A stretch of DNA of 55,980 nt, from positions 1 to 55,980 of IMG/VR virus record IMGVR_UViG_3300012936_002638; one strand, written 5' to 3'. Position 1 is the stretch's first letter. The number at the start of each line of letters is the position of its first letter. Under the pieces are notes generated by a model. That model saw only the letters and a program-made list of their open reading frames with translations, had not been told where the DNA came from and made no database searches. A program made the translations under genes and the position numbers. Origin of the DNA: a virus. This document shows, piece after piece, positions 14,965 to 42,825 of the stretch.

Positions 14965-15278
14965 TAGTTTTCATCATCGGTTACTTAATAATGTTTTTTA
15001 ATGAAGGCTTTGTGATTATGCGTCACGTAAGTCCTTGGTTTGCTACAAAACGCAAACAGTTACATAATAAATTTGGAAGAGAAAGAGTAAAACGTATTCA
15101 CGGACTCACTGATTGGACATGGATTATTTTACTTGCAATAGGAATATATTTAGATTTAGAAAACTGGAAAGTGTATGCAGTTATTGTATTTGCTTTTTGG
15201 ATCGTAGTAGCAGTAGGAGTTTATCTTCCTATGCTATATAGAAAAATAAGACAACAACCAACAGGATATGTAAAATGA
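14961..15278 (+). CDS. integral membrane protein, function unknown
   Basis: A 105-residue protein with three membrane helices (about residues 1-18, 50-65 and 70-90) separated by a basic loop (KRKQLHNKFGRERVKR). It overlaps ClpS and the heme oxygenase gene by four bases each. The tight coupling to heme oxygenase suggests a linked membrane role, which is not shown by any motif. Confidence 0.6.
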   Translation: MIVFIIGYLIMFFNEGFVIMRHVSPWFATKRKQLHNKFGRERVKRIHGLTDWTWIILLAIGIYLDLENWKVYAVIVFAFWIVVAVGVYLPMLYRKIRQQPTGYVK

Positions 15279-15808
15279 GCAAACTTAAAGAACTTACATG
15301 GGAAAACCATCAAAAAGCAGAACGCAAAGTTATTGCAAGAAAACTGCTTAAAGGAATGGAACCAAGAGAATATCATAGATTTTTATACAACCAATATGTG
15401 CAATATGCGGCTTTAGAAAGTTTTGCACAAGATAGAGGCATACTTGAAGGTATAGAAGATATTTGTAGAGCACCAGGCTTTAGAGCAGACATGGAAGAAC
15501 TTGAAACAGAACATAGCATTGAGCGTGAGCCAGAAATGTTATGCGATGTAGTGCCTGACTATGTACGTTATGTAAGCACCCTTGATGATGAAGGATTGCT
15601 ATCACATATCTACGTAAGACACTTTGGTGAGTTACATGGTGGACAAATGATTAAGAAACGTGCGCCTGGTAGTGGTACATGTTATGATTTCAATAACCCA
15701 GAAAAACTTATTAGTGATGTGCGTGAAAGATTACATGATGGAATGGCACCTGAAGCTAATACATGTTTTGAATATGCAATGAAACTTTTTGAGGAGTTAG
15801 AGCAATGA
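15275..15808 (+). CDS. ho1: heme oxygenase
   Basis: Opens heme to biliverdin, CO and iron. The 177-residue all-helical protein has the proximal His near residue 12 in ENHQKAER and a distal helix YVRHFGELHGGQM, corresponding to the Y-x-R-x-x-G-D-L-x-G-G-Q signature of bacterial and cyanophage enzymes. It is shorter than cyanobacterial HO1 (about 240). In non-photosynthetic hosts it could release iron or alter heme-dependent respiration; that role is inference. Confidence 0.85.
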   Translation: MSKLKELTWENHQKAERKVIARKLLKGMEPREYHRFLYNQYVQYAALESFAQDRGILEGIEDICRAPGFRADMEELETEHSIEREPEMLCDVVPDYVRYVSTLDDEGLLSHIYVRHFGELHGGQMIKKRAPGSGTCYDFNNPEKLISDVRERLHDGMAPEANTCFEYAMKLFEELEQ

Positions 15809-16269: not shown

Positions 16270-16952
16270 GCGAAGTATGGGATACCTTAATAGAGATCCA
16301 AGACAGACTTATACATGCTTTTGGAAACACAGGACATGAAATAGAAGAACCTGGTATGGAACGATTTAACCAGCCAGGTTGGATCAATAGAGTTTGGGAA
16401 AGCAGTAGTTATAGACGAGCTCACATTGATGTTGTAGATGCACGTGAGTCTAAAGGCTTATGGATGATGCATTGTTGCGTGTTTCCACATTTAGATAATG
16501 ATGGACCTATATTTGGACTAGACGTTATTGCTGGAAAGAAAAAGATAACAGGTTTCTTCCACGATTACAGTAGAACAATATCAGAATCACATCCTATGAT
16601 ACATGCATTTGGTGATGAAGTAGCAAAACTAGAATGGCGTAAAGAACGTGAACTACCTGAATGGGCTAGAGCAATATTTTCGCCACATATGGTAGCCGCT
16701 GGTAATGTTAGTAAAACAGAAGAACTTGATCAGTTGTTAGCATTAAGTTTAGATAGTGTAGATGCATACTTAACAGATATTTCAAACTATAATGAATCTG
16801 CGGATGAAGAAGAAGTCAAGGCGGCACAAAATCGTTATGCACATTATCAAAAACAAAATCCACATACGCCAAGGACTATGACGAGTTTAGGGTTAGACGA
16901 AGAGGATGTTCGTGTATTTGTACAAGAATGTTTGTTTCCTGACATTAAATAA
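16266..16952 (+). CDS. phage protein, function unknown
   Basis: A 228-residue soluble protein. ATG 16266 overlaps the upstream TGA and is preferred over a TTG two codons earlier. The N-terminal half is an alpha/beta domain (SSYRRAHIDVVDARESKG, GPIFGLDVIAG) and the C-terminal half is helical. The stop overlaps the radical SAM start by one base. No family is recognised. Confidence 0.6.
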   Translation: MSEVWDTLIEIQDRLIHAFGNTGHEIEEPGMERFNQPGWINRVWESSSYRRAHIDVVDARESKGLWMMHCCVFPHLDNDGPIFGLDVIAGKKKITGFFHDYSRTISESHPMIHAFGDEVAKLEWRKERELPEWARAIFSPHMVAAGNVSKTEELDQLLALSLDSVDAYLTDISNYNESADEEEVKAAQNRYAHYQKQNPHTPRTMTSLGLDEEDVRVFVQECLFPDIK

Positions 16953-17971
16953 TGCCGCAATGCAAAGCTCTAACTAATCAAATACATTACAATATAGATG
17001 GTAACTTTTTACCTTGTTGTGCATTTGATACAGAGCTTGTATTCCCTGTAAGTGAATATACACCTATTGAGTTTCTAACTAGCCCGTTTATGCATGACAT
17101 TAGAAATGAAATGCAAACAGGCTGGCATAACGGTTGCATTATATGTAAACGTAATGAAGATGCAAACAAGTTTAGTCTAAGACAACATTATAACTTATGG
17201 TGTAGACAAAATGATGTTATAGAGTTTTTAGATTTATCTCTTAATAATACTTGTAACCTAACATGCAGAATGTGTGATGAAATCAGCAGTAGTAAATGGG
17301 CAGAAATAAAACAAACAGTTGGGCATAGACATAACTTTGCGGATATAATAAATCATTTACCAGATATAAAATATATAAAATATGTTGGCGGCGAACCTTT
17401 TATTACACCCGAAGTAAAAGATATAATAGATTATGCGGCAGAAAAACATATTACATTAACAGTAAACACAAACGGCACATTCTTTCCATATAAACATCTT
17501 AATAAACTAAAGTTAACAAAAAGTTTAAATGTAGGTGTGAGTATAGACGGATACCAATATACAAATGATTATATAAGAAACGGTAGTAACTTTGAACAAA
17601 TAAGCAAAGTTATGGCAGAATGGATAAACTTTTATAAGGAACACAAAGGTATCCTTTCTATAGATACTACAGTACAGGCTTATAATCTACACGATCTTTC
17701 AAATATAAAACTTTATGCAAATACAATAGGTGTGCAGTGGTTACCGCAACTACTTGAAAAACCAATGCACTATAATATAAATGCACTACCAGAAAACTAT
17801 ATTGATGAAATATTAGACGAAACTAATACACAGTTTGTTAAAAACTACAAGTTTGACGAGCTTGCCTGGAATGCATTATGCAGTCAAACAAAACTTAATG
17901 ACACATTGTTTAATAAAAATATTGCAGACTATAATCCTATCTTGCATAAATACATTAACGGAGAAGCCTAA
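16952..17971 (+). CDS. radical SAM protein with N-terminal cysteine (SPASM/twitch-like) domain
   Basis: Radical SAM enzymes use a 4Fe-4S cluster and S-adenosylmethionine to start radical chemistry. The cluster motif CNLTCRMC places the three cysteines at 101, 105 and 108, and YVGGEPF is the GGE motif. Before it lies a cysteine-rich block (LPCCAF, then GCIICKRN) that should bind an auxiliary cluster. The 339-residue protein resembles the radical SAM proteins at 47.8-56 kb but stands alone here, coupled to the nuclease-like gene downstream. The substrate is unknown. Confidence 0.82.
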   Translation: MPQCKALTNQIHYNIDGNFLPCCAFDTELVFPVSEYTPIEFLTSPFMHDIRNEMQTGWHNGCIICKRNEDANKFSLRQHYNLWCRQNDVIEFLDLSLNNTCNLTCRMCDEISSSKWAEIKQTVGHRHNFADIINHLPDIKYIKYVGGEPFITPEVKDIIDYAAEKHITLTVNTNGTFFPYKHLNKLKLTKSLNVGVSIDGYQYTNDYIRNGSNFEQISKVMAEWINFYKEHKGILSIDTTVQAYNLHDLSNIKLYANTIGVQWLPQLLEKPMHYNINALPENYIDEILDETNTQFVKNYKFDELAWNALCSQTKLNDTLFNKNIADYNPILHKYINGEA

Positions 17972-18991: not shown

Positions 18992-19468
18992 ATGAGACTA
19001 TTAATCATCGCCGTTGCATTTTTTTTGTTAATTGTAAGACCTAGTGGAGGTGGTGCAGATCTTATACATCACTTCAAGTCACCTGCCTTTAATGGTCAAG
19101 GTTATAGTGCTCACATGCTAAGTTTAGAGCAACTTACCTATAACAGAAAAAAAGACATGGAAGACGAAGCACAACGTGAAGCAGATCGTATAGAACGTGA
19201 ACTTGAAAACACAGTGCTAAACAAGTTTATACGTAACTTAGAATCACGTATATATGCAACACTTTCTAAGCAGTTGGTTGATAACATGTTTGCGGCCTGT
19301 GGAGAAGAAGATCAACCTGCATGTGCAAATACAGGTAGCACCGAAGTTGAAGGTGCAACTATAACATGGAGCAAAGACGAAACTACTGGCGACATTACAT
19401 TAGTAGTAGATGGTCCTGATGGTTATACTGAAATAACTATCCCAGGTGCTGGAGAGTTTACATTTTGA
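18992..19468 (+). CDS. csgF: CsgF-like curli assembly protein
   Basis: CsgF caps the CsgG outer-membrane pore and couples secretion to curlin nucleation. The 158-residue protein has a signal peptide (about residues 1-22). The mature N-terminus ADLIHHFKSPAFNGQG corresponds to the CsgF segment that inserts into CsgG. The central NKFIRNLESRIYATLSKQL matches the CsgF helix. The next gene is csgG, overlapped by four bases, which strongly supports the assignment. No CsgE or CsgC was found in the window. Confidence 0.85.
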   Translation: MRLLIIAVAFFLLIVRPSGGGADLIHHFKSPAFNGQGYSAHMLSLEQLTYNRKKDMEDEAQREADRIERELENTVLNKFIRNLESRIYATLSKQLVDNMFAACGEEDQPACANTGSTEVEGATITWSKDETTGDITLVVDGPDGYTEITIPGAGEFTF

Positions 19469-20268
19469 AACATCTAGTATTGATAGCGTTTATATTCCTT
19501 ACTAGTTGTGCTCAAAAAGGACAAGTGCCTACAAGTTTGCAAAGGGAACCAACACTACAGCCTAATCCTATGGTGTTAGAACTAAATGAACTACAACCAT
19601 TAGATGGTCCTGTAATGACTGTAGGCGTATATGAGTTTTCTGATAAAACAGGGCAACGTAAACCAGCAGACAATATTGCAAATCTAAGTAGTGCAGTTAC
19701 ACAAGGTGCAGAAGCATGGGTAATAGATGCATTATTGCAAGCGGGCAACGGAACATGGTTTGAAGTTGTAGAACGTGTTGGTATGGATCATGTAATAAAA
19801 GAACGTCAACTAATACGTAACACTAGAGATAACTATGAAAAAGAAAATGCTACACCTTTAAAACCTATGAAGTTTGCAGGACTATTAGTAGAAGGTGGTA
19901 TTGTAGGATATGACAGTAACATAGAAACTGGCGGTAATGGTGCTATGTATTTAGGTATAGGCACAGCAGTTGAATATAGAGTAGACACTGTAACGGTTGC
20001 TATGCGCCTTGTAAGCGTTAGTACAGGGCGTGTACTTATAAGTGTAGCAACAGAAAAAACTATTGCAAGTTACAGACAAGGTGCAAACGCATTTAAGTTT
20101 TTTGATTTAGGCACAGAGGCACTAGAAATAGAAACTGGTTACAGTGTTAATGAGCCTACAAACTACGCTGTTAGACAAGCAATAGAATCAGCTGTGATAG
20201 AAGTTATCATTCAAGGTGAAAAACAAGGGCTTTGGAAGTTTAAGAAAGACAAAACTTCTTCATCTTAG
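19465..20268 (+). CDS. csgG: CsgG-like curli secretion channel lipoprotein
   Basis: CsgG forms the nonameric outer-membrane channel for curlin subunits. A lipoprotein signal ends in LTSC (Cys 15). The body carries the family blocks VGVYEFSDKTGQRKP, TWFEVVERVGMDHVIKERQ, GLLVEGGIVGYDSN and a C-terminal NYAVRQAIESAVIEVI. At 267 residues it is the usual length. A TTG start overlaps the csgF stop. Its 3' end overlaps the convergent HTH gene by 29 bases, so transcription of that gene would run antisense into csgG. Confidence 0.9.
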   Translation: MKHLVLIAFIFLTSCAQKGQVPTSLQREPTLQPNPMVLELNELQPLDGPVMTVGVYEFSDKTGQRKPADNIANLSSAVTQGAEAWVIDALLQAGNGTWFEVVERVGMDHVIKERQLIRNTRDNYEKENATPLKPMKFAGLLVEGGIVGYDSNIETGGNGAMYLGIGTAVEYRVDTVTVAMRLVSVSTGRVLISVATEKTIASYRQGANAFKFFDLGTEALEIETGYSVNEPTNYAVRQAIESAVIEVIIQGEKQGLWKFKKDKTSSS

Positions 20269-20527
20269 CCAATAACGTTTCTCTTTTAATACCAAGTTTT
20301 TTAGCGGCATGTGTACGATTGTTGTTACACTCTTTTAATGCTTCTACAACCTTATCTAAAATATAATCGTCAATATCTTGTTGAAGGCAATAGTCTTCTT
20401 CTTGTTGCTTTTCATCTTCTGATGTTGGCGGCCATATATCATTAAAAACTTCCCAAAAATATTGTTGCTCTTTATAGTTCTTTTCTGCTTGTGCTAATGC
20501 ATTCATTACTATTTTTCTTTCCATCAT
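20240..20527 (-). CDS. Fis-type helix-turn-helix regulator
   Basis: A 95-residue protein whose last 40 residues (VVEALKECNNNRTHAAKKLG then IKRETLLAKMKKF) form the Fis/NtrC-type HTH: a helix, N-N-x-T-x-A-A-K-x-L-G, and a recognition helix. The N-terminal half is an acidic helix pair. It has no ATPase or receiver domain. It sits on the opposite strand between csgG and the curlin gene, with its own late-promoter box at 20573-20580. This suggests it regulates the curli module or later gene expression. Confidence 0.75.
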   Translation of the reverse strand: MMERKIVMNALAQAEKNYKEQQYFWEVFNDIWPPTSEDEKQQEEDYCLQQDIDDYILDKVVEALKECNNNRTHAAKKLGIKRETLLAKMKKFCLS

Positions 20528-20543
20528 TATATACGCCTATAAA

Positions 20544-20559
20544 TGTAAAAATATTTACA
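20544..20559. promoter_or_regulatory. 16-base dyad, possible operator
   Basis: TGTAAA (20544-20549) and TTTACA (20554-20559) form perfect inverted arms around four bases, in the gap between the HTH gene and the curlin gene. Its position and symmetry suit a binding site for the HTH protein made next to it. Confidence 0.4.
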
Positions 20560-20572
20560 CTAAATATTTATG

Positions 20573-20580
20573 TATTTATA
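20573..20580 (-). promoter_or_regulatory. T4-type late promoter box, minus strand
   Basis: TATTTATA on the plus strand is TATAAATA on the minus strand, 46 bases upstream of the HTH gene start. A near copy (CATAAATA on the minus strand) abuts it at 20565-20572. It is divergent to the box at 20596. Confidence 0.6.
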
Positions 20581-20595
20581 AAAATGAGCGGTTGA

Positions 20596-20603
20596 TATAA
20601 ATA
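20596..20603 (+). promoter_or_regulatory. T4-type late promoter box for curlin gene
   Basis: Exact TATAAATA, 32 bases before the ATG of the first curlin-repeat gene, leaving room for a short leader with the ribosome-binding region AAAGG (20623-20627). It would place curlin, FecR-domain and second curlin genes under late control. Confidence 0.65.
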
Positions 20604-20634
20604 CTACTGGCTATTAGGCCGAAAGGTTAAAAAC

Positions 20635-21372
20635 ATGAGGGCAATAATATGGGCTTCACTCCTTGCATTGGTTCTCGGCACGTCTACTAGTGCAAACGAG
20701 ATTTACATTGAACAAATTGGTGATACTTTAGATCTAGACATAACTCAAGATGGCGAGAACAACCAGTTTGGTGATAGTACTACTGATGTAACATTGGATG
20801 GTGATAGCATGACATTTGATATTACACAAACAGGTAACAGCAACGATATCGCGGCTGTTATTAAAGGTAACACGTATACAGGTACATGGGAGTTTACTGG
20901 AAATAATAACACAGTAGATTTACTCTGTGATAGTACAAGTGGTACAAACTGTGAAAATGTAACCCTTAATATTACAACAACAGGTAATACAAACAAGTTT
21001 AACCTTAAAGTAGGACAAACAGACGATGCTGACAGTGCAGAAATAGATTTTGTAATTGACGGCGATGGTAACGTCTTAATAAGTGAAATCGACGGCTCAT
21101 CAGCAATACTTGATATTACAGTAGACAACAGTAATAGTAACAGTACTGCACAGTTTACAGATTCAGATACAAACTTACAAACAGGACAAGGTGGTGTCTT
21201 AGTTGTTACAGACCAAGATGGTGATGGCGACTCAGCAGGACACACTATAAAACTTGACGTTACCGGTGGCGGAAGCCGCTATGATATAAAGCAAAGTGGA
21301 GTCAACGATAATTTGTTTGACGGCACTTTCCAAGGTGACGGGCATGAAGTGGATATTATACAGTCTGATTAG
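20635..21372 (+). CDS. secreted curlin-repeat protein (CsgA/CsgB-like), first copy
   Basis: A 245-residue protein with a Sec signal peptide (cleavage near STSA-N). The mature sequence opens NEIYIEQIGD and continues with imperfect repeats of the curlin pattern, Q-x-G-x-x-N about every 20-30 residues (ITQDGENNQFG, ITQTGNSNDIA, a late IKQSGVNDNLF). It is rich in Asp, Asn, Thr and Gly and has no Cys-rich region apart from one loop with two Cys. It is a candidate amyloid subunit for the CsgF/CsgG channel encoded upstream. Repeats in the middle are degenerate. Confidence 0.8.
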   Translation: MRAIIWASLLALVLGTSTSANEIYIEQIGDTLDLDITQDGENNQFGDSTTDVTLDGDSMTFDITQTGNSNDIAAVIKGNTYTGTWEFTGNNNTVDLLCDSTSGTNCENVTLNITTTGNTNKFNLKVGQTDDADSAEIDFVIDGDGNVLISEIDGSSAILDITVDNSNSNSTAQFTDSDTNLQTGQGGVLVVTDQDGDGDSAGHTIKLDVTGGGSRYDIKQSGVNDNLFDGTFQGDGHEVDIIQSD

Positions 21373-22453
21373 TATAGTACTGGCTACACCAGCATATAGC
21401 AACATTGGAATAATCGCAGAACACAAAGGTTCCAGCACGATTGAACGTAAGGATGACAAGTACACTGGAGAAACAGGACTTGGACTAGAAATGCGTGACA
21501 GGATAATAACTGGCAAAGGTTCACTACGTATGGATTTTGTAGATGATACTAGAGTAGATGTTACTGAACACAGTCGTATGACTATAGATGAGTTTATATA
21601 CAATCCTACTACACGTACTGGTGCATTATCAATGAAAGCTACATTAGGTGCTGTGCGTTATGCTAGTGGTCAAATAGCTAAGAATAGCAGACAACGTGTA
21701 AACATTAGGACACCTAGTGCTACTATTAATGTGCGTGGAACAGACTTTATAATGGTTGTAGATGAAATAGGTGGTAGTATGATTACATTACTACCTAGTT
21801 GCGATTCATCAGGATTGTGTGTTGTTGGCGAAATAGAAGTTGAATCTGATGTAGGCAGAGTAATAATAAATCAAGCATTTCAAACTACAGTAGTAGGACA
21901 TCATGGACAAGTACCTGGACCAACTGTTGTATTAGATTTACCCGAAAACATGCTTACTGCTATGCTGATTATACGTAAAGTTTCCCCATACACAGAAGAA
22001 ATACTTAAAACATATCCTGATACAAATCTTTTAGACATTGACTTTTTGAAGTTTGATGAACTAGATAGAGACCCATTAGTAGATGGTATAAAAAGTATTT
22101 GGGTTACTGATTTAGATAACATGACTTACTTAGATCCAGTATGGATAGATGAAATGGAGCGTCAGTTGGCTGCCATATTAGCACAATGGTTTGACGAGCT
22201 TTCTCAACAAAACGTAGAATTTTTTGATGAAAAGTTTTTAGGTTTAGATCCAGAAACAGGAATATTTTATGATGAAGAGTATCCATCATTTATTGTGAGT
22301 AGGCGTGAGGGTGTACAACATTATTTTAGATTAAAATTATCACAAGGATATGGATACATGATTGATATGGAACAGGAGGGCTTTTATGCGTACGGCTACC
22401 GTGTTGGCGTTGGCGGCGGTAATAGTATTACTATCATGCAACGTGGCTTCTAG
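21344..22453 (+). CDS. secreted FecR-domain protein
   Basis: A 369-residue protein with a signal peptide (MKWILYSLISIVLATPAYS). A FecR-type domain follows, covering GSLRMDFVDDTRVDVTEHS, GAVRYASGQIA, and VNIRTPSATINVRGTDF, the classic FecR strand set. The C-terminal half is unique and ends in an aromatic Gly-rich stretch. ATG 21344 lies within the end of the curlin gene after AAGGTGA, giving a 29-base overlap. FecR-domain proteins either relay signals to ECF sigma factors or bind surface polymers. With no ECF sigma gene nearby, a structural or surface role beside curlin is more likely. Confidence 0.8.
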   Translation: MKWILYSLISIVLATPAYSNIGIIAEHKGSSTIERKDDKYTGETGLGLEMRDRIITGKGSLRMDFVDDTRVDVTEHSRMTIDEFIYNPTTRTGALSMKATLGAVRYASGQIAKNSRQRVNIRTPSATINVRGTDFIMVVDEIGGSMITLLPSCDSSGLCVVGEIEVESDVGRVIINQAFQTTVVGHHGQVPGPTVVLDLPENMLTAMLIIRKVSPYTEEILKTYPDTNLLDIDFLKFDELDRDPLVDGIKSIWVTDLDNMTYLDPVWIDEMERQLAAILAQWFDELSQQNVEFFDEKFLGLDPETGIFYDEEYPSFIVSRREGVQHYFRLKLSQGYGYMIDMEQEGFYAYGYRVGVGGGNSITIMQRGF

Positions 22454-23414
22454 TAATGAAATTTATATAAATCAAGTTGGCGATAATAGTGACTACACTA
22501 TAACGCAAGATGGAGAGGACAATAAGATTCACAGTTTAAACACTGTTAGTGGTAGTGCAAGCCTTGGTGGCAACAACAAAACATTTACACTCGAACAAAC
22601 AGGTAATAACAACCGTGCAGGATTTTGGACACACGGTGGCAATCAAGTTATTAGCTTGATACAGGACGGAGATAACAATGTTAGTGCTATGGATAATCAT
22701 GGCAACAACAACGACATGAGTGTAGACATTGAAGGTGATGGAAACGTTACGCATACCGAAATAGGCAATGGTGGCGATGAATTTAATGAGATTGATGTAA
22801 TAATCGATGGCGATGATAACAACGTATATGCAGAAGTATTAGATGGCGATAGCAATGAGTTTGATATACAAATACATAACCAAGATGATAATTTAGTAAG
22901 AGTAATTGTTTCAGGCGATGATAACAAAGTTACAGCATGGCAAGGTAAACACGAAAACGGAACTGTGGATTTAAGTGAAATAGGTGACAATGAAGTGTAT
23001 TGGATTGTACAGGGTAATAATAATGAACTAGAAAGTTACCAGACTGATGATAATAATCAAGGTGGCTTACACATAGCAAACTATATAACCGGTGATGACA
23101 ACACAGTAAAACACACACAGCGTGGTGGCGGTGAACATGATGGCTTTATCGAAATAGGTGGCGATGGCAATGATGTTACACTTACACAACGTGGCAATAC
23201 TGATACACAGTTTGCTGATATAGTATTAGATGATGGACATACCGTAGATGTATTTCAACGCTATGGATCACACACAGCAAATGTTGATTTAACTAATGGC
23301 GGTGGTGGCTACACATTAGATTTAGATCAGATAGGCACTGCAAACAAAACCTATAACTTAACTGGCATCTGCACAAATAACGCAGGCTGTGCAGTTAGTG
23401 TCACACAAAATTAA
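22386..23414 (+). CDS. secreted curlin-repeat protein, second copy
   Basis: A 342-residue protein beginning MRTATVLALAAVIVLLSC; the LLSC could be a lipobox, or cleavage may follow VASS. Mature sequence NEIYINQVGD parallels the first curlin protein and is followed by many Asn/Gly/Asp-rich repeats (ITQDGEDNKI, LEQTGNNNRA, LIQDGDNNVS, LTQRGN). They are more regular than in the first copy. AGGAGG (22373-22378) sets the start. It overlaps the FecR gene by 68 bases. If lipidated, it could be the membrane-anchored nucleator (CsgB role) while the first copy is the polymer. Confidence 0.8.
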   Translation: MRTATVLALAAVIVLLSCNVASSNEIYINQVGDNSDYTITQDGEDNKIHSLNTVSGSASLGGNNKTFTLEQTGNNNRAGFWTHGGNQVISLIQDGDNNVSAMDNHGNNNDMSVDIEGDGNVTHTEIGNGGDEFNEIDVIIDGDDNNVYAEVLDGDSNEFDIQIHNQDDNLVRVIVSGDDNKVTAWQGKHENGTVDLSEIGDNEVYWIVQGNNNELESYQTDDNNQGGLHIANYITGDDNTVKHTQRGGGEHDGFIEIGGDGNDVTLTQRGNTDTQFADIVLDDGHTVDVFQRYGSHTANVDLTNGGGGYTLDLDQIGTANKTYNLTGICTNNAGCAVSVTQN

Positions 23415-23462: not shown

Positions 23463-23945
23463 ATGATAGATCCAGTAACCGCTATAGGTATGGCATCAGC
23501 CGCCTACAATGGGCTTAAGAGAGCAATAAACACAGGTAAAGAACTGCATGACATGGGGAGTCAACTATCAAAGTGGGCAGGAGCTATTTCAGATTTAGAC
23601 TTTGCACACAAACAATCTGAAAATCCTCCTATGTTCAAAAAAATATTTGGTGCATCCAATATCGAACAGAATGCACTAGAAGTATGGGGCCATAAACAAA
23701 AAGCTAAAGAAATGAGAGAAGATTTACGATCTCATATTAGTTTATTTTATGGACCGTCAGCATGGGATGAAATAGTTCGAATCGAAGCAGAGATGCGTAA
23801 AAAACGTAGAGAAGAGGCGTATGCCGCTGAAGAACGTAAACAGCTTATACTCGAATGGATAGTAGGAATAACTACATTTGCAGTATGTGGTGGCATTGTA
23901 GTAGGCATAATATACTTGATTGGTCTTGGCCAAGGCCGATGGTGA
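23463..23945 (+). CDS. phage protein with C-terminal membrane helix
   Basis: A 160-residue protein with an N-terminal Ala-rich amphipathic segment (IDPVTAIGMASAAYNGLKRA), a charged helical middle, and one C-terminal membrane helix (about residues 138-155). Proteins with this exact opening pattern are, from memory, common in marine T4-like phages. The tail-anchored layout suggests an inner-membrane or virion-assembly role; the function is unknown. Confidence 0.65.
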   Translation: MIDPVTAIGMASAAYNGLKRAINTGKELHDMGSQLSKWAGAISDLDFAHKQSENPPMFKKIFGASNIEQNALEVWGHKQKAKEMREDLRSHISLFYGPSAWDEIVRIEAEMRKKRREEAYAAEERKQLILEWIVGITTFAVCGGIVVGIIYLIGLGQGRW

Positions 23946-23971
23946 TAAATTAAAGAGTAAATAAATATCAT

Positions 23972-24355
23972 ATGTTCAAATGGTTGTTTAAATCGCTATT
24001 AGAAGAACACGTGAACGAACTAGTAGATAAACGTTTTAAGGAGCGTGTATATGAAAGGTACTGGGAACAGCGACAATCCCAGATGGAAGAAAGGATCCGA
24101 CGAGTCAAAGAATCCCTTGGTACATCGTCACATGGGGTGGACGCAAAAAAGGCGCAACGAATACAAAAGCCCAGTAGTATACTGGAGGTATCCGGATCAA
24201 AAGAATCCGGGATACAATCGAAGGCTACTAAAGTAAATCAAGAAACATGGTTTGAAGATACATTAGAAGATGTAGCAAAAGCTAGGGAAATACAGGCTAA
24301 GCGTAAAGAAATGGACTCACTCAGATCTAAACTAACAGGAGGAAAGAAAAAATAA
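23972..24355 (+). CDS. charged coiled-coil protein, function unknown
   Basis: A 127-residue basic protein with an N-terminal helix rich in Glu/Arg (VDKRFKERVYERYWEQRQ), a Ser-rich linker and a C-terminal helix ending in KLTGGKKK. It is coupled to the next gene by a TAATG overlap. The linker is encoded in unusually G- and C-rich DNA for this genome. No family is recognised. Confidence 0.5.
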   Translation: MFKWLFKSLLEEHVNELVDKRFKERVYERYWEQRQSQMEERIRRVKESLGTSSHGVDAKKAQRIQKPSSILEVSGSKESGIQSKATKVNQETWFEDTLEDVAKAREIQAKRKEMDSLRSKLTGGKKK

Positions 24356-24537
24356 TGTGGGCATTAATATGGTTAGCACTTACATCTTCTCAAAATATGG
24401 AAACATATCATTTAGGAAATTTTGAAGATAAAGAAACATGTGTCTCTGCTATGAGTACAGCCAGTGTACTTGTTACAGATAAAAATCAAACAGTAGATTG
24501 TATCTACCTTAACGTCAATAAACGTTTCACAAAATGA
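24355..24537 (+). CDS. small exported protein with paired cysteines
   Basis: A 60-residue protein: a short hydrophobic leader (MWALIWLALTSS), an aromatic strand (METYHLGNF), Cys in ETCVSAM and a second Cys in VDCIYLNV. The layout is shared with the proteins at 5943 and 45847. It overlaps the cyclase gene start by four bases. A periplasmic disulfide-bonded mini-domain is inferred. Confidence 0.6.
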   Translation: MWALIWLALTSSQNMETYHLGNFEDKETCVSAMSTASVLVTDKNQTVDCIYLNVNKRFTK

Positions 24538-26579
24538 AAAAGTTAGCATTCTCACCTATATGGAGTATCATACTTTTAGGCTGTCTTGCTTGGGTAATGC
24601 ATATCAACCCAACATTTGTAGAAAGTCTAAAACTGCGATATTTTGATACGCTGATTATAAATCAACAACCAGTTGATAATAACATTTTTACAGTAAACAT
24701 TGATGAACCAAGTTTAGAGGAATACGGGCAATGGCCTTGGCCGAGAGGTGATTACGGTAGCCTTATAGAGGATTTATATGCCAGAGGCGCTGGACTAGTT
24801 GTGTTTAATGTACTAATGAGTGAAACAGATCGTCAAGGCGAAGATGATATGCTCGCCTTGACAATGTCTAACTTTCCAGTTATAATAACTATGTTAGGTG
24901 CAGAGGAGAATAAGAATGAACCAATTAATCCAGGTGCTACTATCGTTAACAGCGATTACATGTATCTTATACCTAGTGTTCCGGGTATTATTGCAAACGT
25001 TCCGGATATCGAAAATAACGCCGTTGGATCAGGCATCACAAACAGCTGGCCAGAAGTCGACGGAGTTACTAGACGCATACCGTTGGTGGTAGAAAGCGGC
25101 GGTACATTATATCCAAATGTTACTATGGAGGTTCTGCGTGTAATAGCAGGCGATCCTAGCTTTCAAATAAAACTATCACCACTAGGTGTTGATAAGTTAC
25201 GTATTCCGCAGTTTGGTTTTATCAATACATCACCAACTGGAGAAATATGGATTGATTGGAGTCAACAATACAAAAGTTACAGTGCAGTAGACTTGCCAGA
25301 TGATTTTGCAGGTGGTATTGTTTTTGTTGGACCAACTGCCGCAGGTGTTACACAACCTTTAGCTACTGCCGCAGGTTCTGTATTTCCGCATGAAATCCAA
25401 GCTACTATGCTAGGAACAGTGTTTAATGAATCAAACATTGCTAGGCAACCTGATGCAGAGCAATGGGCAGAGTTAGCCGCTTTTGTTGTGGCTGGTATTT
25501 TACTAATTTTAATCGCTCGATGGCCGTATGTAGGCATAGCCTTTTTTGTGGGAACTGTAGGCGGCAGTGTATATATTAGTTACTATATATTCGAACAGTA
25601 TGGATTGCTCGTGGACGGGTTGATACCAGCAACATTTCTAACTCTAGTAGGTCTGAGTCGCTATGTAATAAAGTTTGTAGACGAGTTTTTGCAAAAGCAA
25701 GAAATAAAGAAACAGTTTGCAGGCTATGCTTCACCAACAGTAGTAAGACTATTGCAGGAAAATCCTGCACTGGTTAAAGATGGTATGAAGAAGGACATCA
25801 GCATAGTGTTCTCAGATTTACGTGGCTTTACACCATTAGGTGAAAGTTTTGGTGATGACGTTAAAGGACTTACTCGCATTATGAATGGATACATGGATAG
25901 CATTACACAGCCAGTGCTTGACATGGACGGAATGATAATAAAATACATAGGCGATGCTAGTATGCACATACACAATGCACCTATAGATGATCCTGAACAT
26001 GCTCACTCAGCTGTACATTGTGGCTTAGAAATGCTTAGAGCTGTAGAAACATTTAATGAAAAAGTTATTATTCCAGAAGGTAGACCTCCTGTTGGAATGG
26101 GTGCAGGCATCAATACAGGACTTGGCTATCTAGGTGAAATGGGTAGTACAAAAAGACACAGTTATGATGTACTTGGTGATGCTGTAAGTACAGCGGCTCG
26201 TATAGAAAGTAAATGTAAAGAATATGGTTGTTTGTTATTAGTGGGAGAATCTACATATGAAAAAACTAAGGATGATTTCTTTTATTTAAAAGTAGATGAT
26301 TTACAAGTAAAAGGAAAAAGTGTAGGACTAAGCATATATACAGTTTTAGATAACACAACTCCTGCATGGAAAGTTCCACAACGTAAGCACGATTCAATGC
26401 ATGCCGCATATAAAGCACAAGACTTTGACGAAGCAATAAGTTTGTGTGAAACTATATATACAAGTTTTGATCATAAAATGGAAAAATATTATGACATGTG
26501 GATAGAGCGTTGTCAATATATGAAAACACAAGATTTACCCCAAGACTGGAATGGAGTATTCATCGCAACGAGTAAATAA
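24534..26579 (+). CDS. CHASE2-domain membrane adenylyl/guanylyl cyclase (class III)
   Basis: Makes a cyclic nucleotide from ATP or GTP. The 681-residue protein has an N-terminal helix and a periplasmic CHASE2 sensor (VNIDEPSLEEYGQWPWPR, near residue 50, through about 300). Three membrane helices (about 305-375) lead to a cytosolic class III catalytic domain (about 420-580). The metal-binding aspartates are present (D428 in FSDLRGF, D474 in YIGDAS), as is the transition-state Arg (R556). The usual Asn four residues before it is Ser (S552 in DAVSTAARIES). The Lys of IIKYIGD favours ATP. A membrane sensor-cyclase is very unusual in a virus. Confidence 0.88.
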   Translation: MKKLAFSPIWSIILLGCLAWVMHINPTFVESLKLRYFDTLIINQQPVDNNIFTVNIDEPSLEEYGQWPWPRGDYGSLIEDLYARGAGLVVFNVLMSETDRQGEDDMLALTMSNFPVIITMLGAEENKNEPINPGATIVNSDYMYLIPSVPGIIANVPDIENNAVGSGITNSWPEVDGVTRRIPLVVESGGTLYPNVTMEVLRVIAGDPSFQIKLSPLGVDKLRIPQFGFINTSPTGEIWIDWSQQYKSYSAVDLPDDFAGGIVFVGPTAAGVTQPLATAAGSVFPHEIQATMLGTVFNESNIARQPDAEQWAELAAFVVAGILLILIARWPYVGIAFFVGTVGGSVYISYYIFEQYGLLVDGLIPATFLTLVGLSRYVIKFVDEFLQKQEIKKQFAGYASPTVVRLLQENPALVKDGMKKDISIVFSDLRGFTPLGESFGDDVKGLTRIMNGYMDSITQPVLDMDGMIIKYIGDASMHIHNAPIDDPEHAHSAVHCGLEMLRAVETFNEKVIIPEGRPPVGMGAGINTGLGYLGEMGSTKRHSYDVLGDAVSTAARIESKCKEYGCLLLVGESTYEKTKDDFFYLKVDDLQVKGKSVGLSIYTVLDNTTPAWKVPQRKHDSMHAAYKAQDFDEAISLCETIYTSFDHKMEKYYDMWIERCQYMKTQDLPQDWNGVFIATSK

Positions 26580-26582: not shown

Positions 26583-27245
26583 ATGCAACCAATAAAAGAA
26601 TATTTTGCCAACTGGTTTGGCTTATATGCGACAGAACAAATACGTACAACGGATGATGATCTAAACGTTATATGGATACATGGTGCAAATCAAACAAGTT
26701 TAAGTTTTGAATACTTGCGTGAAAAAACAGATTTTACAAATGAAATATTAGTTAACTACAGTAGCACAGATAAATTTGATTACAACTTAGATAAAATATC
26801 AGAACAAATAAAAGATAAAGGTCCACATTTTATAATAGGACACAGCATGGGCGGCTTGTATGCTTTACATCTTACTCAACGTCATAGGATACTAGGAGGT
26901 GTAAGTATAAGCACACCATTTGCTGGTAGTTGGACAGCTGATTGGGCAAAATATATAGTGCCTAGCTATCCATTGTTTAAAGATGTAGGACGTAGAAGCA
27001 TACCTATAAGAACTTGTATGAATATTGAACTAACTATACCATGGACACAAATTATTACCACACATGGCATGGTTCCATATCATGGTGGACCTAATGACGG
27101 TGTTGTTACTATTGAAAGTATGCGAGCTCGTAATGATATGACGCAAATAGAAGTACCACACACTCACTATGAAACAATGGTGTCTAGTCGTGTTGCTGAG
27201 ATTTTGCAGTCTTGTTATGCTCGTGCTTCAACAACAACGCATTAA
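26583..27245 (+). CDS. alpha/beta hydrolase (lipase/esterase-like)
   Basis: A 220-residue alpha/beta hydrolase. The oxyanion strand VIWIHGANQ, the nucleophile elbow GHSMGGLYAL (catalytic Ser) and a C-terminal His in VPHTHYETM are visible, with an Asp in NDGVVTIESM as third triad member. There is no signal peptide. The pattern GHSMGG and the N-D-G-V-V motif are found in triacylglycerol lipases and PGAP1-like esterases. Substrate unknown. The 3' end overlaps the convergent minus-strand gene. Confidence 0.82.
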   Translation: MQPIKEYFANWFGLYATEQIRTTDDDLNVIWIHGANQTSLSFEYLREKTDFTNEILVNYSSTDKFDYNLDKISEQIKDKGPHFIIGHSMGGLYALHLTQRHRILGGVSISTPFAGSWTADWAKYIVPSYPLFKDVGRRSIPIRTCMNIELTIPWTQIITTHGMVPYHGGPNDGVVTIESMRARNDMTQIEVPHTHYETMVSSRVAEILQSCYARASTTTH

Positions 27246-27719: not shown

Positions 27720-28043
27720 TTATTTTTTCTTTTTTCCGGTAGTATCAAACTTGTCTTGCGAATGTTTATACTCGTCAACAAGTCTTTGCAGTTCGTCTTG
27801 CCTTTGTGGATTAAGTTTAGCTCTGTATTCTAAAACCATGCTTAACTTACTATTAAGTCTAATCATATCGTTGTCTAGCATACGAACACGATCAACTAAC
27901 TTTATAAGAGTACCCATTGTTTCACCTATAACAGGATCTATAACTTCTGTTACCCATTTCCATATAAAATATATGAAATAGCCCATTCCAATAGCGGCCA
28001 TAATAGGAAATCCATATTCACTGATAATAGCGGCTATGTTCAT
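27720..28043 (-). CDS. holin-like membrane protein (BhlA/YvrJ-type), first copy
   Basis: A 107-residue protein: an N-terminal membrane segment with the phrase EYGFPIMAAIGMGYFI, then a long charged helix and a Lys-rich end. Small phage holin-like proteins of the BhlA/YvrJ group have the same G-F-P motif at the start of a single membrane helix followed by a coiled coil. The protein at 28221 is a clear relative. ATG at 28043 overlaps the upstream stop (ATGA). A lysis role is inferred. Confidence 0.6.
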   Translation of the reverse strand: MNIAAIISEYGFPIMAAIGMGYFIYFIWKWVTEVIDPVIGETMGTLIKLVDRVRMLDNDMIRLNSKLSMVLEYRAKLNPQRQDELQRLVDEYKHSQDKFDTTGKKKK

Positions 28044-28240
28044 GGACCACCAAACATCTGTATTAGAGGTGGACCAAATACTGCTCCAGCCCAGCCCATT
28101 GCAACAATAGCTATGACTCCCATTACTAACCATTTCATTTTGAAATCGTCAACGTTCATTTCTATTGCTATAAGCTCATTACCAAGTATCCTTACAGATA
28201 CTTCTAGTTTTCCTTTATCGTCAGTCACGTCTGGCATCAT
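28040..28240 (-). CDS. small single-pass membrane protein
   Basis: About 66 residues: a beta/charged N-terminus (KLEVSVRILGNELIAIEM) and a C-terminal membrane helix (WLVMGVIAIVAMGWAGAVFG). The start is set by AAGGA upstream of an ATGATG pair inside the end of the preceding gene. It lies between the two holin-like genes and is probably expressed with them. Confidence 0.55.
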   Translation of the reverse strand: MMPDVTDDKGKLEVSVRILGNELIAIEMNVDDFKMKWLVMGVIAIVAMGWAGAVFGPPLIQMFGGP

Positions 28241-28499
28241 CTTTTCCTTCATTTGCGGCGATCCTATCAATGTTCGGTCTTACATTAAGTGCATAACTTA
28301 ATAAAGCATCGATCTTAACAAGATCATTGTTCATGGTCTGGACCCTATTGTCCAGTTGTCCAATAATATTTTTTAGTGTAGTTACACTCCCTGTAACCCC
28401 AGCTAATATAAATTTCAATGTTAGGAATACAAAGCCACCTGCGGCTATGGCACCTGCTATTGGAAATCCTACATCAGCTACTAAACTTAAAAAATCCAT
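28221..28499 (-). CDS. holin-like membrane protein (BhlA/YvrJ-type), second copy
   Basis: A 92-residue protein with an N-terminal helix DVGFPIAGAIAAGGFVFL, then a helical region in which LDNRVQTMNNDLVKIDALLS aligns with LVDRVRMLDNDMIRLNSKLS of the first copy. The shared G-F-P helix and coiled coil mark the two as paralogues. It heads the three-gene holin-like group. Confidence 0.6.
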   Translation of the reverse strand: MDFLSLVADVGFPIAGAIAAGGFVFLTLKFILAGVTGSVTTLKNIIGQLDNRVQTMNNDLVKIDALLSYALNVRPNIDRIAANEGKDDARRD

Positions 28500-30801: not shown

Positions 30802-31682
30802 AATATTTAGATAAGTTAGAAACATTAGCAGAGAGTCGCGGCATCACAGGACATAGAGCGGCTACAAGATTTATACATGATCTTAAGACAAATCTAGTAT
30901 ATCATGAACTTATGGGTTATGGTAAAGCAGAAGATGTTGTTGAGTTGTTATCAGATGACAATAACCTTACAGATAATGCAAAACTCAATACAAACTTTAG
31001 ATCAGGATTTGACGGACTTATTAGTCCAGCACTACGTAACAATGAAAACTTTATGGCAACGTTTAGAGTTGTGTTAGATAATAACGGTAAAGGTGTAGGA
31101 GCAGGTGAGCTAGTATTACCGTTACTATTGAGTAACTATCGTTTCAGTAATGACAGTGATGGTGAGTTTGATTATAATGGTAAAACATATAAAACAGAAA
31201 TAAAGAAAAACGGTGCAAGTCTAAAGCCAGTTAAAACAGGCCTTACACAAAAAGGTCATATTGATGAACTTAACAAAAAATATTTTAATGGAACAGTACC
31301 TGGTAAACGTAGCAAAAGAAAACAAGACGCACATCTTGCTACAGTAAATGACCCTAATGTTTATAGAGAATATTTCGAACAAGTTTATGTAGGTTGTGAT
31401 ACTACACTTTTATGTGAAGAAATCATAAATGGAGATTATAAAGATATAGATTATTTTACAACTAAGTTAGGACAGTTTGCACTCCGTGAATACAAAAAGG
31501 TTGACGGATGGCACAATATCATGTATATTGATGGTGATAAAGAGATAGTTGTAAATATTACTGATATTGATAGTATTGATAATGCTTTGGGTATATACTT
31601 TGCTCCTGTAATGCATCGTGGAGGAGATGTACAAGCCATTGCAGATGGATATGTTAACGTACAAATAAAGGCAAAAATATGA
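30798..31682 (+). CDS. PD-(D/E)XK nuclease-like protein, second copy
   Basis: A 294-residue protein: a helical N-terminus (TGHRAATRFIHDLKTNLVY), then GVGAGELVLPLLLS and a strand pair ending KTYKTEIKK. The G-x-G-E helix and the E-x-K strand follow the same order and spacing as in the protein at 17971. An acidic residue before the strand (FDYNGKTY) could complete a nuclease core. It directly precedes the Dam methylase gene (four-base overlap), which might pair a nuclease with a methylase. Confidence 0.5.
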   Translation: MKYLDKLETLAESRGITGHRAATRFIHDLKTNLVYHELMGYGKAEDVVELLSDDNNLTDNAKLNTNFRSGFDGLISPALRNNENFMATFRVVLDNNGKGVGAGELVLPLLLSNYRFSNDSDGEFDYNGKTYKTEIKKNGASLKPVKTGLTQKGHIDELNKKYFNGTVPGKRSKRKQDAHLATVNDPNVYREYFEQVYVGCDTTLLCEEIINGDYKDIDYFTTKLGQFALREYKKVDGWHNIMYIDGDKEIVVNITDIDSIDNALGIYFAPVMHRGGDVQAIADGYVNVQIKAKI

Positions 31683-32605
31683 AACCATTATATATGTGGG
31701 CAGGCGGTAAGAACAAAATGATATCTAAATACTTGGAGAATCCTGGTATTCCAACAAGTGGCTTTGATACGTTTGTAGAGCCGTTCTTTGGTGGCGGAGC
31801 AATGACTATTTGGGTATATGAAAACTGTCCTAATGTTCAGCGTTTTATTATTAATGATATAAAAGAAGAACTAGTAGGCATTTATAAAGCTATAAAAAAT
31901 GATGTTGATAACTTTATAAAACGTATGGATGTATTAGAAGCTCAATACTTACCACTAGACAAAGACAAACGTAAAGAATGGTTTTATGCACTACGTACAC
32001 CATATGCAACCAATACACATAGTTGGAATGCTACTGATGAAAGTGCAACATTGTATTTTTTAATGAAAACTGCATTCAACGGTATTTGGCAAACTACAAA
32101 ACGTGCTAATGGTAGATTTGATACTCCGTTTGGTTTAGGCAATCAAACTAGTGTATATGACAAAAGCAATGTTTTAGAATGGCATGACTTTTTACAAAAG
32201 GTAGATATTCATTGTGGAGATTGGAAAAATGCATGTGTGTCTGTTAATGATGACGAACGTGCATTTTATTTCTTTGATCCGCCTTATAGAGATAGCTTTA
32301 CAAGTTATGGTGAAGGCTTTACAGATGATGATCATATTGCATTGATAAATTATTGTAAGGATAGAAATACAAACGGTCATGTTGTGTTTTATTGTAATCG
32401 CGATGATGCACAAGATGGATTTTTTCCTAAGCATAAAGGACAGTTACAAGATAGTTACTTTGATATCACATACACAGTTGGTCGTAAAGCTACTGAAGAT
32501 GATGGAGAACGTACTGCTAAAAGTGCAAAGGAAATATTGTTGCATAGTAAAATAATAAAAGAACCAGAGTTTTTTGGTAATGGGTTGATGTTAGTAAATG
32601 AGTAG
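31679..32605 (+). CDS. dam: DNA adenine methyltransferase (T4 Dam-like)
   Basis: Transfers methyl from SAM to N6 of adenine. The 308-residue alpha-group enzyme has motif I YMWAGGKNKM (the SAM loop form of Dam), FVEPFFGGGAMTI, a helical recognition domain, and catalytic motif IV FFDPPYRDSF (DPPY). Length and motif order match T4 Dam and D12-class methylases. It could protect phage DNA from host or viral nucleases; the target site cannot be read from sequence alone. Confidence 0.9.
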   Translation: MKPLYMWAGGKNKMISKYLENPGIPTSGFDTFVEPFFGGGAMTIWVYENCPNVQRFIINDIKEELVGIYKAIKNDVDNFIKRMDVLEAQYLPLDKDKRKEWFYALRTPYATNTHSWNATDESATLYFLMKTAFNGIWQTTKRANGRFDTPFGLGNQTSVYDKSNVLEWHDFLQKVDIHCGDWKNACVSVNDDERAFYFFDPPYRDSFTSYGEGFTDDDHIALINYCKDRNTNGHVVFYCNRDDAQDGFFPKHKGQLQDSYFDITYTVGRKATEDDGERTAKSAKEILLHSKIIKEPEFFGNGLMLVNE

Positions 32606-32613: not shown

Positions 32614-33129
32614 TTGAGTATTTTCAGTTGGAGTAGGATAGAAAAAGAGTTAGAACAAATGCAGTCTAACTCAGTATATAAAGATTTTATAAGTAAATTT
32701 GTAGATTGTAAAACTGTAGGTTACGTAGCACATGGTGGTAATCTAGGAATAGCAGATCATGCGGCTATAGATGCTACAAGACATACTGATAAAATGTGTT
32801 ATGCACCAGGCAGTGGAGTTGTTACAACTAGTTTAATCAACGACTTTGATAGTTTATGGCAACGTGAATGGATTAGACGATCAAAGTTAGATGCTTATGT
32901 AATATTAACTGCAAGTGGTTCTAGCACTAGTATCAGTCGTGCAGTGAACTACTTAGAAGTACAAAATATACCGCACATAGTCCTTACTGGAATAGCTCAT
33001 AACTTTAAAAATCAAGTAGTACTTGACTTAGAACATTATCACGAATACGAAGTGGCCGCATTAGCCGCTACTTATATGATGCTTGATACAGGAGGCTATA
33101 ATTGCCCAAAGATAAAAGAAAAATCGTAG
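32614..33129 (+). CDS. SIS-domain sugar isomerase-like protein
   Basis: A 171-residue protein like phosphoheptose isomerase (GmhA). GYVAHGGNLGIADHAAIDAT matches the SIS loop with active-site His, and VILTASGSSTSISRAVNYL is the S-G-x-S phosphate-binding loop. A TTG start follows the Dam stop by eight bases. The 3' end overlaps the CMP-sugar synthetase gene by 28 bases. The pair suggests synthesis of an activated acidic or heptose-type sugar for a surface glycan. Confidence 0.75.
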   Translation: MSIFSWSRIEKELEQMQSNSVYKDFISKFVDCKTVGYVAHGGNLGIADHAAIDATRHTDKMCYAPGSGVVTTSLINDFDSLWQREWIRRSKLDAYVILTASGSSTSISRAVNYLEVQNIPHIVLTGIAHNFKNQVVLDLEHYHEYEVAALAATYMMLDTGGYNCPKIKEKS

Positions 33130-34742
33130 CATTACAAACTGCCAGAGGTGGTAGTAAAAGTATACCCAAAAAGAATCTTTTAGAAGTCAACGGTCATCCG
33201 TTGTTTGCCCACAGTGTAATGGCGGCCACTGGTTGCCAATATATTAAAAGTGTATGGTGTAGTACAGATGATGATACTATAAAAAGTTATAGTGAAGAAT
33301 ATGATTTCAATGTTATTGATAGGCCACCTGAACTAAGTGGCGACAACGATAGTCATTTAGAAGTTATTAGACATGGCATTCTTGAAATAGAAAAGCAAAT
33401 AGGTAAGCAAGACATTGTGGTTTTATTGCTTGGCAATGTTTCAGGAATAGATGCTCAAAGTTTATCTGATGCTATAGATCAACTAGGTGATTATGATAGT
33501 TGTGTTAGTGTTAGTAAATTTAACATGTTCAACCCATATCGTGCTATGCAAATACGTGACCAACAGTTGGAAACATTCTTACCACAACAAGAAATTATAA
33601 CTAACACACAAGCAAATGATAAAAACAGTGCCGGTGACATATATTACTGTAATGGTAACTTTTGGGTAATGAAACGTGATACAGTATTTCATCATAACAA
33701 TAAACTGCCTTTTCAATGGTTAGGTAAAAGAATCAAACCATTTGTACAAGATGTATTTTTAGAACTAGATGCTCCTTGGCAAAAAGACTATGTTATAGCA
33801 AGTTCTACAAATCATAAAGGACAAGAATGTATTTGGGAGCAAGGAACCCGTAAAGCACATAAACACGCCGGAATGAAAAAGTTATATGGTAAAGACCATT
33901 GGGACAGGTTTTTAGAAACACATGATTATTACTTTGTAGAGTTTTGTAACTGTATAAAACCATACATGAAAACTTTAGGAAACTTCAACAAGCCTGAGAT
34001 TGACAAATATAAAAAATACGTTGCTTGGCATGGTTATCAGGAAGACTACAATACATGGTTTCAGTCTTGTATGAAGTCAGGACAAATTTTACAATCTTTT
34101 GATTATACATTTTTTGGACATAGAAAAGACGATATGTTTAAACGTAAAGAGTTTGGGCAGGCATGTATATTAATAGAAGAAATATATACAAATGGATCTT
34201 ACAACTATCCTTGTTTTAGATGGCAAGGTCCTGATCATTTAGCAGTACATCCAGGAAACCACTTGAACTTTGTTAAAACATACTTAGGCATGCCAATAAA
34301 AGGTTTTATGAGTTTTCCTAAGAAGGAAAGGTCTAAGTGGATTGATGAAATACATGCATTGTGTGAAATGCAAATAATAAAAAAGATAAAAAACGATCAA
34401 CAGGTTAAAAAAATATTAGGAACTAATCAAATAGCGGCATGGATTCAAGATTATCATAATCAACTTGTGCCTAGTTTCTATCCAAGTATACCAAGACCAA
34501 CATGGTCAGGATATGACCAAAATGGACATACAGACTGGCCCTGGAATGACGTAACAACTTATCATGAACTGTTTGAAAAAACACGAGCTTCTAGGATAAT
34601 AGACAGTATACTAGATGGAGATCCAATAACAAAGTGGGCAAAAGTTAAAACTAACTATGCTACACCAACAATAGAACTAAACAATTTTTGTGCATTTTTA
34701 TTGACAAACAAAGATAAAGATAACAACTTTGAACTAATTTAG
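33102..34742 (+). CDS. CMP-sugar (sialic/KDO-type) cytidylyltransferase fused to an unknown domain
   Basis: A 546-residue two-part protein. The first 220 residues match CMP-Neu5Ac synthetases: ALQTARGGSKSIPKKNLL (CTP-binding R-x-x-S-K-x-x-x-x-K-N), HPLFAHSVMAA, VWCSTDDD, and the usual FNMFNPYRAMQ region. The remaining about 320 residues are unfamiliar, with Trp/His-rich helices (QDYHNQLVPSFYPS) and no nuclease or transferase motif that I can name. A TTG start is used inside the SIS gene. Activation of a sugar for surface glycan modification is the likely role. Confidence 0.72.
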   Translation: MPKDKRKIVALQTARGGSKSIPKKNLLEVNGHPLFAHSVMAATGCQYIKSVWCSTDDDTIKSYSEEYDFNVIDRPPELSGDNDSHLEVIRHGILEIEKQIGKQDIVVLLLGNVSGIDAQSLSDAIDQLGDYDSCVSVSKFNMFNPYRAMQIRDQQLETFLPQQEIITNTQANDKNSAGDIYYCNGNFWVMKRDTVFHHNNKLPFQWLGKRIKPFVQDVFLELDAPWQKDYVIASSTNHKGQECIWEQGTRKAHKHAGMKKLYGKDHWDRFLETHDYYFVEFCNCIKPYMKTLGNFNKPEIDKYKKYVAWHGYQEDYNTWFQSCMKSGQILQSFDYTFFGHRKDDMFKRKEFGQACILIEEIYTNGSYNYPCFRWQGPDHLAVHPGNHLNFVKTYLGMPIKGFMSFPKKERSKWIDEIHALCEMQIIKKIKNDQQVKKILGTNQIAAWIQDYHNQLVPSFYPSIPRPTWSGYDQNGHTDWPWNDVTTYHELFEKTRASRIIDSILDGDPITKWAKVKTNYATPTIELNNFCAFLLTNKDKDNNFELI

Positions 34743-36472: not shown

Positions 36473-36759
36473 CAGAAGAAAACTTAACCAAAACAGAAGC
36501 AGTAGGTCGATTAATCAGTTTAGCTAGAGAAGTTGAGATTAAAGACCCTGTTGATTGGTCTTCTATTAAAGTAACTGAACAACAAGTGTATGAAACAATG
36601 GCATCTAGTGCTATTGATCAGATTTACAGTTTACCAGAAGATCATAGACAATCAGTTGCAATGGCAACTATAACAAAGTTACTTGTAGAAAACTTTGTCT
36701 TAACACAAAACTTATCAATAGAAAGGTCAAAGAATGCCACTAGTTCCAATAGTAGTTGA
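36469..36759 (+). CDS. helical protein upstream of ClpP
   Basis: A 96-residue all-helical acidic protein ([32 protein letters not shown]) that overlaps the clpP start by 26 bases. The overlap suggests translational coupling with the protease, but nothing identifies a function. Confidence 0.6.
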
Positions 36760-42747: not shown

Positions 42748-42821
42748 ATGGGTGTGGTGTAGTGGCAACACGTCAGTCTCCAAAACTGAAGATGAGGGTT
42801 CGATTCCTTCCACCTGTGCCA
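42748..42821 (+). tRNA. tRNA-Trp (CCA anticodon)
   Basis: A 74-base cloverleaf. The D stem is GTGT/ACAC, the anticodon stem TCAGT/ACTGA with loop CTCCAAA (anticodon CCA), and the T arm GAGGG-TTCGATT-CCTTC. The acceptor stem contains two G-T wobbles, the discriminator is G, and the 3' CCA is encoded. Confidence 0.88.
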
Positions 42822-42825
42822 AAAA

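Follow-up and report, generated by a model that had tools for sequence, protein, structure and literature searches.

The phage gene at 24534-26579 encodes a CHASE2 class III nucleotidyl cyclase homologue lying at the end of a curli (T8SS) module with a FecR-domain gene; the sensor and catalytic halves of this cyclase family have been swapped between phages, and its active site is of a variant Asp/Ser type. That phage curli modules carry FecR and cyclase genes was already known; in the open PMC literature we did not find the half exchange, the Asp545/Ser552 type, or a pairing of FecR with CHASE2 cyclases in bacteria without curli. From sequence and predicted structure, we lean slightly towards an adenylyl cyclase that would sense the envelope, be linked to FecR/curli export and make cAMP. 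The window, meaning the whole stretch of DNA analysed, is IMG/VR virus record IMGVR_UViG_3300012936_002638, of 55,980 nt.

The cyclase ORF begins with ATG, contains no internal stops, and at its start codon shares 4 bases with the preceding 60-aa ORF. Its features are:

24534-26579 (+): CHASE2-TM-class III nucleotidyl cyclase, 681 aa (Pfam, phrog match, AlphaFold2 model)
24540-24605 (+): N-terminal transmembrane segment, residues 3-24 (hydropathy; model helix 9-24)
24594-25502 (+): CHASE2 sensor domain, predicted to be periplasmic, residues 21-323, sensor type A in our own grouping (PF05226, E 5.4e-36)
25455-25658 (+): three transmembrane helices, residues about 308-375 (hydropathy and model)
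25659-25727 (+): linker, residues about 376-398, taken as the recombination junction (identity patterns switch in sliding identity)
25788-26321 (+): class III cyclase catalytic domain, residues 419-596 (Pfam Guanylate_cyc PF00211, E 4.5e-18; structure)
26166-26168 (+): Asp545, the second of the base-recognition residues, where cellular CHASE2 relatives have Ser/Thr (alignment)
26187-26189 (+): Ser552, in place of the transition-state Asn of all cellular CHASE2 relatives examined (alignment)
26349-26576 (+): helical C-terminal extension, residues 606-681 (sequence comparison and model)

Both Pfam domains score well over their gathering cut-offs, and hydropathy places one segment ahead of CHASE2 and three behind, so that Pfam, hydropathy and model agree on the layout of a CHASE2 receptor, with the N-terminal sensor between one and three transmembrane segments. 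The AlphaFold2 model, built with 79 aligned relatives, has a mean pLDDT of 91.2 and helices at 308-327, 331-356 and 363-395. Its catalytic part superimposes on Pseudomonas aeruginosa CyaB (3r5g) with Z 27.0 and rmsd 1.6 Å over 189 aligned residues; a search of solved structures with the whole model matched cyclase domains only. The full-length architecture of the original prediction is thus borne out. A chance ORF was ruled out by the end-to-end match to phrog_35576 (E 1.7e-170) and by relatives at 82 IMG/VR loci (a broader query gave at least 600 matches). With the catalytic fold, two metal aspartates and the transition-state Arg all present, the product is almost certainly a class III cyclase homologue. 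The bacterial CHASE2 adenylate cyclases CyaD1, CyaD2 and CyaK of Sinorhizobium (S.) meliloti, likened here by their descriptions, have the same CHASE2-TM-class III order and relay signals from the outer membrane to an inner-membrane cyclase.

The surrounding genes form a curli module:

18992-19468 (+): CsgF of the T8SS (PF10614, E 1.9e-10)
19465-20268 (+): CsgG, the outer-membrane pore, with an LTSC lipobox at residue 12 (PF03783, E 7.1e-51)
20635-21372 (+): curlin-repeat protein 1, signal-peptide-like N-terminus (PF07012, E 1.9e-4)
21296-22453 (+): FecR-domain protein, predicted exported, proposed CHASE2 partner (PF04773, E 3.9e-7; adjacency in cells)
22362-23414 (+): curlin-repeat protein 2, listed from TTG, true start may be further in (PF07012, E 1.2e-10; NF007470)
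23463-24537 (+): three small ORFs (160, 127 and 60 aa) between curlin 2 and cyclase, the first being phrog_32327
26583-27245 (+): alpha/beta hydrolase, 3 bases past the cyclase stop codon (Pfam)

Inspection by eye shows N-termini resembling signal peptides in the FecR and curlin ORFs. The cyclase had been described as lying directly after phage membrane-protein genes; the genes in question are the curli module (18992-23414), with the three small ORFs intervening. The order csgF-csgG-curlin-FecR-curlin-cyclase is common to the window, Methylophilales phage Melnitz and Pelagibacter phage HTVC008M, and CsgF, CsgG, curlin and FecR stand ahead of the cyclase in each of the 57 viral loci whose upstream sequence exceeds 7 kb, a set gathered by pattern-based scans rather than at random. 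The hydrolase occurs in close relatives of the window only, and may be an add-on to the module. Among the upstream ORFs, scanned in part, that at 16952 is a radical SAM protein, that at 17971 gave no match, and no histidine kinase was recognised; podovirus T8SS modules are reported to have a histidine kinase ahead of them.

The original prediction knew of no described phage protein with this architecture. That claim falls, because a pelagiphage curli module with FecR and adenylate cyclase was published in 2022 (Wittmers et al.; PMC9599517). The module described there has the same gene order and belongs to the same viral clade, including HTVC008M; the window adds the three small ORFs and the hydrolase. 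In the available main text the gene is called only "adenylate cyclase", and the word "CHASE2" is absent. The Melnitz and HTVC008M proteins are both annotated adenylate cyclase, and an entry from an uncultured phage in BFVD was already named a COG4252 sensor. The Melnitz paper (PMC9004378) discusses csgGF as a lysis pore and does not contain the word "cyclase".

Comparison with these two isolates reveals the exchange. The Melnitz cyclase (QZI94387.1, genome MZ577095) is 51% identical to that of the window at 99% coverage, and the HTVC008M cyclase (AGE60353.1), with the same architecture and the same position in the curli module, is 33% identical. Divided by domain, identity between window and Melnitz is 32% for CHASE2 and 83% for linker plus catalytic domain, whereas Melnitz and HTVC008M are 59% identical in the sensor and 38% in linker plus catalytic domain (37% in the catalytic core). 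Melnitz therefore shares with the window its Asp/Ser catalytic type and C-terminal extension, while its sensor is of another CHASE2 type, common to HTVC008M; the latter has a canonical Ser/Asn class IIIb-type site and lacks the extension. Sliding identity switches at residues ~380-400, right behind the last helix. In maximum-likelihood trees of either domain the viral sequences form one group (support 100), yet the two trees conflict within it: by AU test the shared-sensor group is incompatible with the catalytic tree (p 5e-45), as is the shared-catalytic, Asp/Ser group with the sensor tree, there at the modest value of p 0.021. Sensor and catalytic halves have been swapped between phages, and a difference in rate alone is ruled out by the same two tests as the source of the discordance. 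In the open PMC literature, including the available part of PMC9599517, we found no report of this exchange or of the Asp545/Ser552 site.

We examined the neighborhood of CHASE2 cyclases in cells for the FecR partner. The 79 cellular relatives with loci, drawn from genome_contigs, are about 30% identical to the window protein, and for 52 of them 2.5 kb or more of sequence is available on each side. Of these 52, 25 have FecR somewhere in the flank retrieved and 13 have it within 250 bp, in 12 of the 13 on the same strand as the cyclase. Twenty such genomes hold 89 FecR domains in total (about 4.5 each), from which chance adjacency is estimated in well under 1% of loci, for a sample that is partly non-independent (several Bradyrhizobium). 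Pfam confirmed FecR in 8/8 partners scanned, two of which also have RTX repeats, and one of these two cadherin-like repeats as well. Viral-seeded profiles found neither CsgF nor CsgG in the 79 cellular loci, and CsgG is present anywhere in only 6 of 36 genomes with cellular CHASE2 cyclases. FecR, rather than curli, thus looks like the ancestral partner of CHASE2 cyclases; we did not find this adjacency in bacteria without curli reported in the open PMC literature. In Burkholderia a CHASE2 histidine kinase occurs with a FecR/LysM protein (PMC5192318), and the S. meliloti CHASE2 cyclases function downstream of the outer-membrane receptor NsrA (PMC7529298, PMC13001267). Across phages, the FecR identity matrix correlates with that of CHASE2 at r 0.53 and with that of the catalytic domain at r 0.47, so that co-variation gives weak support for direct pairing.

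One locus, L100 (JADHSL010000081.1), was excluded from the cellular set, and is the sole exception to its lack of csgF and csgG. Filed under a Pirellulales MAG, it bears a viral curli-FecR-cyclase cassette with a cyclase 53% identical to that of the window, and looks like a misbinned phage contig.

The window cyclase keeps metal-binding Asp428 and Asp474, Lys470, Arg556 and Lys593. The original prediction was right about the metal aspartates and the transition-state Arg, and missed that the usual partner of the Arg, Asn, is here Ser552 and that the second base residue is Asp545; the window thus departs from the canonical class IIIb pattern of Ser/Thr with an Asn-Arg pair. Among 150 distinct viral sequences, D428, K470 and D474 are conserved in all, and R556 in all 149 that reach its position. 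These 149 have exactly three pairs at 545/552: Asp/Ser (72, the window included), Ser/Asn (65) and Thr/Asn (12). Nearly all Asp/Ser and Thr/Asn copies have the C-terminal extension, and Ser/Asn copies are without it. Position 545 is Ser or Thr and position 552 is Asn in all 79 cellular relatives, and likewise in the 11 best fully readable catalytic matches among 240 alphaproteobacterial genomes, so neither set contains a cellular source of the Asp/Ser site. Since the Asp/Ser sequences form one clade (support 100, maximum-likelihood tree), they probably represent one evolutionary change and not 72, with 545 and 552 altered together on the branch leading to them.

Lys470/Asp545 reads as the ATP-type pair. 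Without the catalytic Asn the protein could be poorly active or serve a different function; however, Mycobacterium (M.) avium Ma1120, which has Lys, Asp, Arg, and Ala where Asn would be, works as an adenylyl cyclase and is inactivated by introduction of Asn (PMC4215837). Asn loss in the phage cyclase therefore does not imply loss of function, nor is Asn required for class III membership; further class III cyclases without it are known (PMC4886424). The structure of Ma1120 (4wp8) aligns with the model at Z 22.5, and the two are alike in the Lys/Asp pair, the non-Asn residue and the retained Arg; they differ in overall sequence (about 23% identity over the catalytic domain by structural alignment), in Ala against Ser, and in that no CHASE2 is described for Ma1120 in the part of that paper available. 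We consider the catalytic domain of the window probably active.

A receptor for the product was sought in phages and in probable hosts. Twelve phage records, two of them the complete genomes of Melnitz and HTVC008M, gave no match to the cNMP_binding domain (PF00027). An alphaproteobacterial order with genomes of 1.0-1.5 Mb and proteorhodopsin in 13 of 14 is probably SAR11; a class III cyclase was found in 0/58 of its genomes and a cNMP-binding domain in only 4/58, which leaves this order with no receptor of known type for the product. Similarity of tmRNA was rejected as a means of naming the host order: the best match, G246, belongs to an order represented by only 4 genomes, and the second, G249, to the large probable SAR11 order. 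A rise in host cyclic nucleotide through the phage cyclase is plausible.

These results bear on two other readings of the active site. The protein might be a conserved pseudo-enzyme, whose Asn-to-Ser domain would bind a nucleotide or a partner as a structural or regulatory scaffold; Ser552 in all 72 members of one viral type, against Asn in all cellular CHASE2 relatives examined, would suit such a role, as would the receptor searches. We think this unlikely, for both metal aspartates, Lys470 and Arg556 are kept wherever sequence reaches, Asp545 completes the ATP-type pair, and Ma1120 and other Asn-less cyclases are known. Alternatively the product may be cGMP, cCMP or cUMP, serving as a phage signal or disturbing a Pycsar-type nucleotide-based defence. 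The joint alteration of two active-site positions on the Asp/Ser branch and the scarcity of CRP-type receptors in phage records and probable hosts are consistent with this, as is a weak resemblance to PycC in PADLOC (best E 1.5e-13); but that resemblance spans the shared cyclase domain only, and no Pyc effector accompanies the cyclase among the neighbors at 21296, 23463 and 26583, none of which has a PADLOC match. Lys470/Asp545 is also the pair classically associated with ATP, and a cyclase with a CHASE2 sensor and linked to curli suggests signalling at the envelope and not defence. We rate a product other than cAMP as quite unlikely.

The gene could also be a passenger: a regulator that came with the curli module out of an alphaproteobacterium, persists through linkage and plays no part in infection today. 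Viral copies do form one clade apart from the sampled cellular copies (hosts mostly Alphaproteobacteria), and the same origin of the module was inferred in 2022 (PMC9599517). Synonymous sites are nonetheless saturated in both domains (pS about 0.7) and catalytic pN is about 0.1 within type, so the catalytic domain is under strong purifying selection, and its high identity reflects constraint; recent spread of the domain is ruled out as the cause by the same saturation. The cyclase has moreover been kept at all viral loci where the module was found, and no decayed copies occur among the 150 viral sequences, although there are fragments at contig ends. A mere passenger is accordingly improbable.

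Contamination by host DNA, the refuting case named in the original prediction, or misassembly has a negligible chance, for the cyclase is in two isolated phage types, Melnitz and HTVC008M, the same synteny holds in 57 loci, and neighboring window genes match Melnitz genes (28221-28499 at 79%, 27720-28133 at 57%). The search of virus databases proposed there yielded the 82 loci, the phrog and the two isolates.

Megablast of window positions 1-24000 against isolate phages gave no match. PEP carboxykinase (89-1279, +; PF01293, E 2e-91) and glyceraldehyde-3-phosphate dehydrogenase (2297-3265, +; PF02800, E 1e-55) lie about 1 kb apart; IMG/VR yielded 13 relatives of the former, 65-79% identical, and one of these (L314) shares a contig with a cyclase relative (L050). 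At least six radical-SAM-type ORFs, all (+), occur at 16952-17971, 47849-49072, 49065-50282, 50282-52438, 52426-53643 and 54529-55941, one with a B12-binding domain and five following one another almost without a break at the right end. Also on the (+) strand are a 745-residue coiled-coil membrane protein (10070-12307) with weak tetraspanin and MscS-porin matches under cut-offs, an IMP dehydrogenase/GMP reductase-like protein (12926-14095), heme oxygenase (15275-15808), a D12-class N6-adenine DNA methyltransferase (31679-32605), a cytidylyltransferase-domain protein (33102-34742), ClpP protease (36734-37351), and six clustered tRNA genes (42748-43233: Trp, Tyr, Cys, Gly, Leu, Met).

The envelope-sensing adenylyl cyclase remains our preferred reading. 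The protein would sit in the inner membrane, where its periplasmic CHASE2 would monitor the condition, at the envelope, of the curli/FecR proteins that the phage itself exports; FecR/curli is marginally our best bet for this input. The three helices and coiled linker would pass control to the cytoplasmic catalytic domain, which most likely would turn ATP into cAMP, with an ATP-type Lys470/Asp545 pair, Arg556 kept and Ser552 replacing Asn; both activity and product we infer from the active site. A more far-reaching proposal, doubtful and put forward tentatively, is that marine phages carry a self-contained envelope-to-cytoplasm circuit of curli pore, curlin, FecR and CHASE2 cyclase, with halves exchanged between phages, which would bring cyclic-nucleotide signalling to hosts that lack both a class III cyclase and any known receptor, the Asp/Ser form being a catalytic type of its own, read by a receptor still to be discovered.

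Phage curli modules have been reported without known purpose, the proposals so far being a lysis pore, sibling capture and uptake. Exchange of sensor and output suggests an input tuned to module or host while the enzyme is held fixed; the strict Asp/Ser type raises a question that biochemistry can address directly. Probable hosts seem to lack receptors of known type, which points to a target yet to be discovered. With the CHASE2 receptor paired with FecR in bacteria, even without curli, what had been a regulatory gene without a known use becomes a model that can be tested, in which the phage would monitor its own envelope export and signal within the cell.
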